From Clostridia bacterium (lineage in GTDB: Bacteria; Bacillota; Clostridia; Christensenellales; CAG-917): a DNA stretch of 64,000 nucleotides. Below are positions 33,092 to 38,258 of the stretch, one piece after another. Every line of letters begins with the position of its first letter. Position 1 is the first letter of the stretch. Where the stretch lies: contig JAFTSA010000006.1 in assembly GCA_017461985.1 (NCBI GenBank), positions 64,110-128,109 on the forward strand, given 5' to 3'. Made by a program: the position numbers and the translations under genes. Under the pieces are notes generated by a model, which worked only from the letters and a program-made list of their open reading frames with translations, did no database searches and had not been told where the DNA came from.

Positions 33092-34021
33092 TTATTGTTT
33101 TTCGTATTCACCGTACGTCCAAATGGTGTCCGCCACGTCAAAGGGGCTTGAGGTGTGGTGATAGAGGCCGTTGATGACAAATGAGCCCGTCTTTGAAAAG
33201 TCACCTCTCAGATAGATATCAGGGGGATAGTTGATGTCAAAGGTGGTGTCATAGTGGTCCTTGTCCGCATTTTTCACCTTGGTGTAGGGGTCGTGGGTTA
33301 TGTAGAGGTAGATGGTCTTTTTGTCCTGTGCCATCCAGAAAGTGCCCTCGATGACGGTGTCGCCATTTCTGTATTGGAAGAGTTCGTAGTCTCTAGGCTT
33401 TGTCATAAGGAAGGTGAAACTTTCACCTGAGGGCAGGGTGTATGTGCCACTGGGGATATGGAGATTATCATTTCCATTGTAGGTGTTGCTTTCTGTTTTG
33501 AAGGCTTTGCCTTCAAGGATATATGTGCCCATCTTGTAGGGCAACTCACTTATGCGGTAGATATGGGTGTAGATTGTACCGTCAGTCATGCCCAAATCTT
33601 CTTCTTCAGATACAATGGTGAATTGAGTGAAGTCTGTCTTGAAGTCCTCAACGTAGCAACCGATCCAGTCCTCTTTGGATTTGTCATTTCTTGTGAGGAT
33701 GAAGGATATGGGGGTCATGACGTCACTGCCAAATCCGTGGTCAACAACACGGAAAGTGCCGTTAAACTTGCTTTCACCGTCTTCAACGTAGGTGAAGGTC
33801 ATAGCCCCCTTTGCGCCGTTGAAGGTGAAATAAGTGGTGTTGTCATCCATCAAAATCCATTTGCCTGTTGAGGATGGCAACTCGGTTTCGTAGTTGTCCG
33901 CATCACCTGCGCTGTCTCCAGTTTTGTCACCAAACAGCCCACTGAAAAGGTCGCATCCAGTGAGGGTGAGGGCAAAAGTCAACAATATTGCCACCAAAAG
34001 CACAACTGCAGTCTTTTTCAT
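33092..34021 (-). CDS. Lipoprotein of unknown function
   Basis: 309 residues from ATG 34021 (AAGGAG upstream), 16 codons inside the longest frame. Signal peptide with lipobox LTGC near residue 23. The mature part is beta-rich with repeated short units: 'WILMDDNTTYFTFNGAKG', 'FKTDFTQFTIVSEEEDL', 'SGTYTLPSGESFTFL', perhaps two or three related lipocalin-like or beta-sandwich modules. Anchored outside the membrane. No family recognised. Same strand as the next lipoprotein upstream, 64 bases apart. Confidence 0.85.
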   Translation of the reverse strand: MKKTAVVLLVAILLTFALTLTGCDLFSGLFGDKTGDSAGDADNYETELPSSTGKWILMDDNTTYFTFNGAKGAMTFTYVEDGESKFNGTFRVVDHGFGSDVMTPISFILTRNDKSKEDWIGCYVEDFKTDFTQFTIVSEEEDLGMTDGTIYTHIYRISELPYKMGTYILEGKAFKTESNTYNGNDNLHIPSGTYTLPSGESFTFLMTKPRDYELFQYRNGDTVIEGTFWMAQDKKTIYLYITHDPYTKVKNADKDHYDTTFDINYPPDIYLRGDFSKTGSFVINGLYHHTSSPFDVADTIWTYGEYEKQ

Positions 34022-34085
34022 AGCCTTTCTCCTTGATAGGAATTTATATACATATTTTAAAACCGACAAACAAACTTGTCAAATT

Positions 34086-35249
34086 TTATCTTGTCACCGT
34101 CAAAAAGTCTTCCAACACAATTTGGTCACAAACAGGTGCATCGGGGCTTTGGAAGGATATCACTATGTCGTAAACACCTGCAGGAAGAGTGTAATCTGCG
34201 GTTTCAAAGAATCTAAAGAAATCGTATATTTTTTCTCCTGTTTCAATGCTGAATTCAGTCATAGCAAACCAGCCGGACATAATTGATGGAATAGAATACG
34301 AAGTTGTTTCATTGACAAAAGAAATATTGAAGATATTCAAAGTGGTATCGTGTTCGATGTGGACAAATGGTTCCCCAAAATAGGTTATGTTTGCCGAAAT
34401 TTTGAAGATTCGCTCGCCTGTCTTTAGGTTGTAGGGGAATGCGATTGTTCCAAAATCTACAGTTGCTTCAAAGCTGAACAAATCGCAAGAGGCTGAGAAT
34501 GATGTCTCCTTGAAGTTGAACTTTGTAGTGTTCAGCATTGGAGATTCAAAAACCGCATAATCGCCATATTCGTGAAGATCTTCGTTGTAGAAAAATGAAG
34601 AGTTATATATGCTGTTTTCAATATCTTCAAAGCTGCGAGGCTGATGAATTATGTTGTAAATGGTCGCCACACCATGCTCATCTTCTTTGAAAAAGGTGGG
34701 GAAGTCGAAGTTGGCAAGATGAATGCCTGTGTTCGTTTTACTATCGTAAATATGCACCCTTGACTGATTGTCGTAAGAACCATCCACTACATTATATGAC
34801 ACCGATGTCAAGATCTCAATGTGTCCGTCATTGTCAATATCCGTGATCGCAAAATTGGTGAGATAATATTTGTAATGGTTCGTATTGCCACCGCAGAGAG
34901 ATACTACATTGTCCTTGTATTTCAAAAAGAAAATGGTGTAGGATTTTTGACAAACCTCAAAGATATCCAAGCCGTATTTTTTGCTAGTCTTTCTGTCTAT
35001 GTGGTTGTACACTGCATAGTCCGAATCTTTATCAAACCAATAAGGCTGTTTGTTTTCTTCGCAATATTTTTCGAAGGCCTCTCTCAACTTTGCGTTGTGC
35101 AAGTCGTTTCTTTCTTCGGGGAAGAAGATGAAGTTTTCACTGATGCAAATGCCGTTGGGTGCAAACTTAGGCCCTTTGTTGCATGCAAAAAAGGTCAGCG
35201 TAAAAGCCAAAAGCAACATGACAGTTAAAATAATTAAAACTTTTTTCAT
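34086..35249 (-). CDS. Lipoprotein with an FG-GAP-like motif
   Basis: 387 residues from ATG 35249 (GGAGAA upstream); the longer frame start is rejected. Lipobox 'TFFAC' near residue 23. 'FAITDIDNDGHIEILTSVS' resembles the Ca-binding loop of FG-GAP/VCBS beta-propeller repeats (DxDxDG). Other parts are beta-rich with no recognised domain. Probably a surface lipoprotein; distinct composition (more A/T-rich codons) than its neighbours. Confidence 0.82.
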   Translation of the reverse strand: MKKVLIILTVMLLLAFTLTFFACNKGPKFAPNGICISENFIFFPEERNDLHNAKLREAFEKYCEENKQPYWFDKDSDYAVYNHIDRKTSKKYGLDIFEVCQKSYTIFFLKYKDNVVSLCGGNTNHYKYYLTNFAITDIDNDGHIEILTSVSYNVVDGSYDNQSRVHIYDSKTNTGIHLANFDFPTFFKEDEHGVATIYNIIHQPRSFEDIENSIYNSSFFYNEDLHEYGDYAVFESPMLNTTKFNFKETSFSASCDLFSFEATVDFGTIAFPYNLKTGERIFKISANITYFGEPFVHIEHDTTLNIFNISFVNETTSYSIPSIMSGWFAMTEFSIETGEKIYDFFRFFETADYTLPAGVYDIVISFQSPDAPVCDQIVLEDFLTVTR

Positions 35250-35326
35250 ATTTTCTCCTTCGCTATTAACCGAGTAAAACCAGATGCCGAGCCTTGTCAA
35301 AGTGTTTTTATTGTGTGCGAGGTTGT

Positions 35327-36382
35327 TTACCAAGCGTTGACCACGTATTCGCAGAATCCATACATATCCTTGATTTCAAGGACTGTGCCGTCGTCCAGGG
35401 TGACGGTGCCGTTGTAGTAGCCGTGGGCTTGATGGCACTTTGTGCCTGCCAGTTTTTTGATGATAAATCCGCTGGCATCGTCGTAGAAGGGGGTGAGGGT
35501 AAGGTTGAATCTGCCGTCCTCACTGACAAACTCCCAAGGTTTTGTCCAACCCTTTTTGCCGGGGAATTCCTTCACGTCAACTCTGCCGATTTTGTGGGCT
35601 TTGCCGTCATAGAAAAGGCAAGTTTCGGTTGCGTTGGAGTCGTCACCTATGAGCCAAGTGATTTCAAAGCCGAAGGTATGGCGGTTGCCGTCTTTGTCGT
35701 AGAGATAGGTTGAAGCGTTGCCCCAATACCACTGGCAGTTGTGAGGCCAGACGCCTCGTCCCCAGTCCATAACACCAAAGGTGTTCTCCTTTGTGAAGAC
35801 AAACTTCTTATCCCCAAAAGTGACAGTGCCCTCGGCGGGCATGCAGTTTTGCTTTGTGGTGAGGAAAAACTGATTAGGGTGTTTCTTGAAGGGGGTGACG
35901 ATGGTGATATTTTCGTGTCCTTCGGGTATATCCTCAGTGAAGTCAAACACAAGGGGCTTGCCGTTAAGGACGCTTTCAAAGGTGACGTGGCGGTAGCCTT
36001 CTTCGATATTTGTGTCATACACCATCTTTATGTCCTTGTTTTCATACACAAGTTTGTTTGTTCTGTCCCCGATTTCGGGAGGGAGAAAGCGGTTGCGAGT
36101 GAAGAGGGTATTTATGAACTTGAAAGCAACAAGTTCACCCGTCTGTATATCACGTATAGAAGCGGCGGCGGATGTGGCAACGGTTATGTTGAAGAAGTTG
36201 ATGAGCACCTTATATCTGCCGTCTGAGAATTGATGAAAATCCCACTCCTTAAGACGCCAACGGGGGCGACAAAGATCACGTTTGTATTCAAAGAGGTTTC
36301 GTCTTGCCCAACCCTTTGCAAGGAGATTTCCGTCCTTGTCAAGGAGGGGAGTGACGGAAGTGTATTCAGTTTGTTTTTGCAT
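35327..36382 (-). CDS. DUF2804-family protein
   Basis: 351 residues, cytoplasmic. Matches the DUF2804 pattern: N-terminal 'PLLDKDGNLLAKGWAR', then 'FGVMDWGRGVWPHNCQWYWGNAS', which is the family hallmark, and a beta-sandwich C-terminus. Structurally like lipocalin-like or hydroxyneurosporene synthase-type folds; the reaction is unknown. A weak GAGGTG precedes ATG 36382. 77 bases upstream of the lipoprotein on the same strand. Confidence 0.88.
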   Translation of the reverse strand: MQKQTEYTSVTPLLDKDGNLLAKGWARRNLFEYKRDLCRPRWRLKEWDFHQFSDGRYKVLINFFNITVATSAAASIRDIQTGELVAFKFINTLFTRNRFLPPEIGDRTNKLVYENKDIKMVYDTNIEEGYRHVTFESVLNGKPLVFDFTEDIPEGHENITIVTPFKKHPNQFFLTTKQNCMPAEGTVTFGDKKFVFTKENTFGVMDWGRGVWPHNCQWYWGNASTYLYDKDGNRHTFGFEITWLIGDDSNATETCLFYDGKAHKIGRVDVKEFPGKKGWTKPWEFVSEDGRFNLTLTPFYDDASGFIIKKLAGTKCHQAHGYYNGTVTLDDGTVLEIKDMYGFCEYVVNAW

Positions 36383-36685: not shown

Positions 36686-37555
36686 ATGAAAAAAATCGCA
36701 GTCATCTTTATGGTTTTGGCACTTGTCCTCGGTGCAGTTTTCGCATTTGCAGGATGCAATCAATCAGTGGAAAAAGTCAAACTTGTCAACGTTGAATTGA
36801 CAGGTGAGCAATATGGCTATTGTGTGGCAAATGGTGAGGCCGACCTTCTCAGTAAGGTTAACACCTTCCTGGCTCAAATCACCAGCGATGGCACCCTTGA
36901 CACACTTTACGCAAAGTACGACAGCACCAAAAACGCAAATTATAGTTCAATCACCGGCATAGGCTCAAACGTTGCCACAAGTGAAACAGGCATTGCAAAC
37001 CCCCTCATCGTTGCCACCAACACCGATTTTGAACCCTTTGAATACAAAAACGGCAACAACTTCTGTGGCATTGATATGGAAATTGCAAAACTTCTTGCAG
37101 ACTATCTCGGCAAAACCCTTGTCATCAAGGATATGGACTTTGACGCAGTTGTCACCTCAGTTGAAACAGGACTTTGCCACATCGGTATGGCAGGTCTCAC
37201 CATCAGTGATGATCGTGCAGAAACAGTCAGTTTCTCAAATCCTTACTACGGCACAACCCAAATGATCATCGTGAGAGCAGACGACACCACCTTTGACGGA
37301 TGCACCACAAAAGAGCAAATTGAAGAAAAACTCACCTCTCTTGTGGGCAAAAAGGCAGGAGCACAAAGTGGCACAACCGGTTTCTACTACATCAACGGCA
37401 GTGAAGACTTCGGCTTTGACGGCTTCTCAAACATTGATATGAACGCATACGATTCAGCAGCACTTGCAGTGACCGACCTCATCAACGGCGCAATCGATTT
37501 CGTTGTGGTTGACAAAGACCCTGCAAAGGCAATCATCAAGAAAGTGAACATCTAA
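36686..37555 (+). CDS. Amino-acid ABC transporter binding lipoprotein, apparently circularly permuted
   Basis: 289 residues with signal and lipobox 'FAGC' (Cys 24). Residues ~106-289 follow the type-3 solute-binding fold from its usual first strand: 'LIVATNTDFEPFEY', 'GIDMEIAKLLADYLGK', 'GMAGLTISDDRAETVSFSNPYY', 'GAQSGTTGFY', 'VVVDKDPAKAIIKK', where the protein stops. The usual last segment (strand plus 'EQYGYCV', 'LLSKVNTFLAQITSDGTLD', 'LYAKY') is missing there and instead sits at residues ~29-78, directly after the signal peptide. This is a circular permutation that should keep the two-lobe fold. First gene of a three-gene transporter operon. Confidence 0.93.
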   Translation: MKKIAVIFMVLALVLGAVFAFAGCNQSVEKVKLVNVELTGEQYGYCVANGEADLLSKVNTFLAQITSDGTLDTLYAKYDSTKNANYSSITGIGSNVATSETGIANPLIVATNTDFEPFEYKNGNNFCGIDMEIAKLLADYLGKTLVIKDMDFDAVVTSVETGLCHIGMAGLTISDDRAETVSFSNPYYGTTQMIIVRADDTTFDGCTTKEQIEEKLTSLVGKKAGAQSGTTGFYYINGSEDFGFDGFSNIDMNAYDSAALAVTDLINGAIDFVVVDKDPAKAIIKKVNI

Positions 37556-37556
37556 T

Positions 37557-38258
37557 ATGGAAGCAAAATGGAGGGTTTTTGTCCGCTCGTTCATTGAATA
37601 CGGCGGAGCAGAAACCGTACTGACAGGACTAAAAAACACAGTGTTGATAGCAGTCTTCGGGCTGCTTATCGGCATTTTTATAGGCACAATCATCGCCGTA
37701 ATCAAGGTTATGCCCCGTGAAAACAAGGTGGCAAGAGTCTTTGGCTTTCTGGGTGACCTTTACGTGACTGTGTTCAGGGGCACACCTATCGTGGTGCAAC
37801 TTTTGATATTCTATTATATCCTTTTCCCTGCAATGGGACTGCGCATAGACTCCCTTGTGGTGGCAATCGTCACCTTCGGCATGAACAGCGGTGCATACGT
37901 AGCCGAGATTATGCGTGGTGGCATTCAGTCCATTGACAAAGGTCAATTTGAGGCGGGCAGAGCACTGGGACTCAGCTACGGCGCAACAATGCTCAGGATT
38001 GTCGTACCTCAAGCAATCAAAAACATTTTGCCCACCCTTGGCAATGAGTTTATCGCCCTTGTGAAGGACACCTCAGTTGTAGGATTCATTGCCACCCTAG
38101 ACCTCACCCAAGCCTTCAAGCGCATAGGCTCACAAAACTATGAATTCATCATCCCTTATCTGCTTTTGGCAGCAATATACCTTGTCATCGTGCTCATCAT
38201 CACGGGCATAGTCAAACTTCTTGAAAGGAGGTTAAGTAAGAGTGATAGACGTAATTAA
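37557..38258 (+). CDS. Amino-acid ABC transporter permease
   Basis: 233 residues, five to six membrane helices, HisM/GlnP family: '[16 protein letters not shown]', '[15 protein letters not shown]', the EAA loop '[22 protein letters not shown]' (first 20 residues: cytoplasmic contact to the ATPase), '[12 protein letters not shown]'. Starts one base after the binding-protein stop. Its end overlaps the ATPase start by 17 bases. Confidence 0.94.

Follow-up and report, generated by a model that had tools for sequence, protein, structure and literature searches.

The window, by which we mean the whole 64,000-nucleotide stretch of DNA that was analysed, very probably encodes a working lipoprotein that captures amino acids for an ABC importer and whose type-3 solute-binding fold has undergone natural circular permutation; its ligand and its role in transport are inferred. 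Judged from its sequence, the lipoprotein is a permuted variant of the type-3 family and not a member with the canonical order. It lacks the canonical arrangement (lobe 1, lobe 2, C-terminal segment). Instead, the C-terminal segment comes first and is followed by lobe 1 and then lobe 2.

The gene begins with an ATG at 36686 and ends with a TAA stop at 37553-37555, and the ATG of the permease gene is at 37557 (Table 1). Both partners of a polar amino-acid uptake ABC importer, a HEQRo-type permease and an ABC ATPase, are present, and the operon order is binding protein (first gene), permease, ATPase. No other PF00497 protein was found in the source genome (1.41 Mb, 98.5% complete). The lipoprotein shares 81% overall identity with its nearest relative, with a dN of 0.12 and a dS of 1.36 for the mature protein. 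For short segments, dS is saturated. An Rfam scan of the window identified no RNA regulator 5' of the operon and gave just one tRNA, located elsewhere. Also present, on the minus strand, are two adjoining genes with lipoprotein-like signal sequences (33092-34069 and 34086-35333), to which no function was assigned.

Table 1. Features of the permuted binding-protein operon and of the locus pair used to infer block exchange. Positions are those of the window unless a locus is named; residue numbers are those of the lipoprotein.
Feature	Position	Strand	Evidence or remark
Ribosome-binding-site-like GGAGAA	36674..36679	+	Direct reading; ATG 6 nt further on
Circularly permuted type-3 amino-acid-binding lipoprotein, 289 aa (predicted)	36686..37555	+	Intact ORF; PF00497 at 103.4 bits (curated Pfam cut-off 26.4); order tail-coreN-coreC
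Signal peptide and lipobox (...FAGC, acylated Cys24)	36686..36757	+	Sequence; Cys24 invariant in 12 aligned relatives
Ordinarily C-terminal type-3 segment, residues 30-78 (hinge strand and last two helices)	36773..36919	+	Profile; AncQR 182-230
Linker from old C-terminus to old N-terminus, residues 79-104	36920..36997	+	Linker lengths in 136 relatives
Part that is N-terminal in canonical order (lobe 1 plus first hinge strand), residues 105-216	36998..37333	+	Profile match to residues 105-208, 139.5 bits
Part that is in the middle in canonical order (lobe 2) and here C-terminal, residues 217-289	37334..37552	+	Profile match to residues 221-287, 84.2 bits
Cognate permease, polar amino-acid uptake family	37557..38258	+	PF00528; TIGR01726 at 77 bits (cut-off 42.2)
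Cognate ATPase (GlnQ-like) with mid insert of ~110 residues	38242..39357	+	PF00005; GlnQ model matched in two stretches
Locus L019, compared with L026 (reverse strand)	L019 1..3564		Body and permease replaced as a block

The segment order was established with profiles built solely from 35 unpermuted relatives, separately for the C-terminal part (tail), the N-terminal part (coreN) and the middle part (coreC). Each of the three occurs once in the lipoprotein. The first-pass annotation had recognized in residues ~29-78 the pattern that ordinarily ends a type-3 protein, and this reading is borne out: 'EQYGYCV', 'LLSKVNTFL' and 'SDGTLDTLYAKY' all lie within residues 41-78, and the tail profile matches residues 30-78 at 47.7 bits, compared with 10.7 bits for the highest of 2000 shuffles of the region. 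The usual type-3 beginning had been placed only near residue 106, and 'LIVATNTDFEPFEY' is indeed found from residue 107. The chain had also been described as stopping at 'DKDPAKAIIKK', where that ending would ordinarily follow; it does stop there, although the actual end, 'DKDPAKAIIKKVNI', is three residues past the string quoted. A second copy of the C-terminal segment, hidden by a frameshift near 37555, can be discarded, as only 1 nt separates the stop codon from the permease gene and the profile has no further significant match in a six-frame translation of the window.

Comparison with proteins of known order gives the same picture. The match to AncQR (4zv1) consists of two swapped pieces, with query residues 106-286 on chain residues 11-177 and query residues 30-78 on 182-230. 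After rotation of the sequence to canonical order there is one contiguous match (query 4-237 on chain 12-230), and the score rises from 101.5 to 114.5 bits. Likewise, the TIGR01096 match is in two stretches before rotation and in a single full-length stretch after it.

Structure prediction of the mature protein, one of the checks proposed in the first-pass annotation, returned a type-3 fold. AlphaFold2, supplied with an alignment of 75 same-order relatives and no others, gave a compact monomer (pLDDT 94.9, pTM 0.89); prediction from the single sequence gave an unusable model (pLDDT 36.5). Fold matches of the model are amino-acid-binding proteins, with Thermotoga maritima ArgBP among the top ones. 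An order-bound structural alignment to AncQR (Z 17.3, rmsd 2.1, 171 residues) places model residues 79-266, which are protein residues 102-289, on chain residues 7-180 and leaves the last ~50 residues of AncQR unmatched; Foldseek gives TM scores of 0.58/0.67 for the same pair. An unmatched end of this size is as expected of a permutant under aligners that follow chain order. Residues 30-78 are predicted to occupy the canonical site of the C-terminal segment, a placement that rests on AlphaFold confidence and sequence, without an order-independent superposition. No chain with the order tail-coreN-coreC was found among the solved structures searched.

By alignment alone, G170, T172, R177 and D276 are placed at the residues with which GlnBP holds the backbone of its amino acid. 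In 12 relatives of the same order, neither R177 nor D276 varies. N112 takes the place of D10 of GlnBP, and side-chain specificity may differ from that of GlnBP. Fold, cleft and backbone ligands are predicted, from sequence and model and without experiment, to have been kept.

We refer to the order of this protein (tail-coreN-coreC) as order A, and to coreC-tail-coreN, in which the cut is at the start of lobe 2, as order B. A search for relatives with the same order had also been proposed, and in a scan of one genome per species the best 80 loci, all in other genomes, share order A. Thus, we conclude that order A is old. Carriers include Thermoclostridium caenicola DSM 19027 (L043), Acetivibrio mesophilus N2K1 (L067) and Cuneatibacter caecimuris DSM 29486 (L083); its occurrence in three named Clostridia strains means that it is not an artefact of metagenome assembly, and its distribution across Clostridia rules out confinement to the lineage of the window. 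The proposal of a natural permutation that keeps the fold is supported by the sequence evidence, by more than 100 same-order relatives and by the confident type-3 model.

Searches of the family, order and class of the window also recovered canonical and order B relatives. Distinct proteins were classified as order A (136), order B (48), canonical (50) and cut after the first strand (1). These proteins were chosen by similarity and apparent order, and the counts are not estimates of prevalence. A lipobox is present in 134 of 136 order A, 47 of 48 order B and 49 of 50 canonical proteins, and a permease gene adjoins 128/136, 47/48 and 42/50, respectively. The linker between old C-terminus and old N-terminus has a median length of 20 residues in order A (136 relatives; 5-95% range 18-29) and 22 in order B. 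Two rarer cuts were identified. In three proteins (L307, 585-1547; L308; L309), which belong to another class of the phylum, the cut falls midway through lobe 2, and one type-3 protein, encoded near a contig end in one genome (L186, 2728-3783, minus strand), has its first strand (~15 residues) shifted to the C-terminus. No second protein cut after the first strand was found in a search of the family of the latter. At L106 (1354-2265), a divergent second binding protein adjoins an order A gene and seems to be permuted as well (tail before coreN).

Fusions of binding protein and permease occur in order A (n = 2) and order B (n = 3), and also with canonical tandem domains. In L094, L126, L224, L234 and L235 the permuted binding domain is joined straight to the permease, entering it from lobe 2 in order A and from the first hinge strand in order B. 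The mid insert of the ATPase of the window consists of ~110 charged residues within the ABC domain. A minority of relatives, drawn from all three common orders, have ATPase inserts of 100-140 residues. The insert was considered as a companion trait of the permutation and rejected, since unpermuted and other-order proteins can be accompanied by it too and most same-order loci lack it.

For phylogenetic analysis, all sequences were rotated to canonical order, and an unrooted maximum likelihood tree was computed for 104 proteins (219 columns). There are at least 14 order changes on this tree. Strongly supported branches alone force seven for order A, four for order B and seven for the canonical order. 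Constraining an order to a single clade is rejected for canonical (p = 9e-53), order A (p = 3e-48) and order B (p = 1e-4), which excludes, on the 219-column alignment, one ancestral event per order. We infer that permutation is recurrent, with several cut points across Clostridia relatives. Because the tree is unrooted and rests on 219 columns, gains cannot be distinguished from reversals.

Some of the scatter has another source. Within one genus of the family, nine of 10 genomes have a single-copy leader, made up of upstream DNA and the signal peptide, and it always precedes a type-3 body; order A, order B and canonical bodies are found behind it in three genomes each. Comparison of an order B locus (L019, genome G029) with a canonical one (L026, genome G033) shows 89% identity over the 1295 nt that close with the signal peptide. 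Bodies and permeases cannot be aligned at high identity; the sequences agree again, at 97%, from the beginning of the ATPase gene (2842-2848 of L019) onward. From this pattern we infer that body and permease were replaced en bloc, while the signal peptide on one side and the ATPase gene on the other stayed fixed. Some of the spread of orders among species is therefore exchange and not new permutation. The tree was built from the bodies themselves, so the order changes on it remain changes despite this exchange. The comparison also shows that a signal peptide can join a new mature start at this point, a requirement of any permutation.

In the arrangement given by sequence and model, the second hinge strand and the last two helices of lobe 1 (the old C-terminal segment) lie behind the lipobox, a linker of ~25 residues ties them to the old N-terminus, and the chain stops at the end of lobe 2. 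Sequence and model together place the lipid anchor of order A at the hinge, moved from lobe 1, with the free C-terminus on lobe 2; on the same grounds, the anchor of order B is placed at the start of lobe 2. The origin that we infer as most likely is tandem gene duplication and in-frame fusion, after which copy 1 would have lost its 5' part, copy 2 its 3' part, and the signal peptide would have been rejoined at the new start. Different trimming points in such tandem units may have given the other orders seen in relatives. Tandem-domain proteins (6h30, and the GlnP-type protein L310 within the phylum) are a plausible intermediate. No direct duplication intermediate of the lipoprotein gene was found. 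From the operon we infer that the protein would undergo the usual open-closed amino-acid binding and would deliver its ligand to the downstream permease and ATPase.

Could residues 30-78 be an unrelated anchoring or spacer domain that merely resembles the C-terminal segment, with a core that works without it? Between nearest relatives, identity is lower in the segment (69%) than in the core (86-90%). However, a profile score of 47.7 bits (at most 10.7 in the shuffles), the presence of the segment exactly once in each order, and the restoration of full-length matches by rotation leave this idea with practically no support. Domain swapping, in which residues 30-78 would complete the fold of a neighbouring molecule to form a swapped dimer and not a permuted monomer, has a precedent in T. 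maritima ArgBP, a top fold match that forms a swapped dimer in which one C-terminal helix is exchanged between subunits (PMC4022495). We consider it very unlikely here, as the linker of ~20-25 residues, conserved in length and position in two permutations, should permit closure within one chain, and the predicted structure is a compact monomer (pTM 0.89). That tail and core come from different paralogues is improbable, if somewhat less so. The body exchange between signal peptide and ATPase points to active recombination at the locus, but tail and core occur together in more than 100 proteins and no donor pair was found.

Another reading accepts the permutation but denies it an adaptive reason. 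The fold may simply tolerate new termini, with duplication, trimming and cassette exchange spreading neutral variants, and we see this as an evenly balanced possibility. The three common orders occur side by side in the family, even in one genus, the tree has at least 14 order changes, and permease fusions exist in several orders. Set against this, order A is kept in all of the best 80 matches across Clostridia, and the commonest permutations all shift the lipid anchor to the hinge or lobe 2 side, which would be coincidence under neutrality. Whether the termini moved for anchor placement or neutrally has not been shown. The suggestion in the first-pass annotation that permutation alters the membrane tether or the docking on the permease is plausible and without experimental support; fusions in several orders indicate that docking needs no single geometry. 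A wider proposal, which we put forward tentatively and with more doubt than conviction, is that type-3 proteins of Clostridia and relatives form a natural permutation series with at least four cut positions, each arising several times and perhaps reverting, under selection on anchor or fusion site and spread by exchange of body and permease while signal peptide and ATPase gene stay fixed.

Natural circular permutations mostly turn up as isolated curiosities. In this case, one family has unpermuted and several permuted members in a common operon context, and even at one locus in one genus. A two-lobed binding protein that is rewired and yet working amounts to a repeated natural experiment, in which the origin and tolerance of permutations, and whether the position of the lipid anchor of a substrate-binding protein matters (as proposed for TpMglB-2), are directly testable. 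The family is also a warning that permuted proteins are cut short, without notice, by domain-based annotation and by aligners bound to chain order, and it makes evolved designs available for permuted amino-acid biosensors.

The lipoprotein has all segments, the fold, the core residues and the operon partners in common with type-3 (SBP_bac_3) proteins such as GlnH, ArgBP, AncQR and the substrate-binding domains of GlnP. It differs in that its segment order is rotated and its N-terminal lipid anchor is predicted at the hinge, whereas theirs is on lobe 1. In ArgBP the same C-terminal region is structurally detachable, but the sequence order is ordinary. GlnPQ-type proteins (SBD1-SBD2-permease; 6h30, L310) have two complete domains fused to the permease, whereas the protein of the window has one permuted domain and its permease is a separate gene; it does not qualify as a protein of the GlnPQ tandem type. 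In sequence alignment, however, it is collinear with 6h30 across the boundary between the SBD1 tail and SBD2. A literature search whose coverage excluded preprints and most subscription papers found no description of type-3 binding proteins that are naturally permuted. TpMglB-2 (Tp0684) of Treponema pallidum is a naturally circularly permuted glucose-binding lipoprotein of the type I sugar-binding fold, termed 'type Ic', with homologues in treponemes and Gram-positive gut bacteria (PMC4990184). A single cut site was described, with the first three strands moved to the C-terminus, and its authors propose, without a test, an adaptation to membrane anchoring (PMC4990184). TpMglB-2 and the protein of the window are alike in being natural circular permutations of a binding lipoprotein. 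By homology they belong to different families, the lipoprotein matching SBP_bac_3 and no Peripla_BP family in Pfam, and their cut sites differ. TpMglB-2 is thus the sole precedent found, in a different fold class, and recurrence at several sites is the surprising part of the type-3 case.
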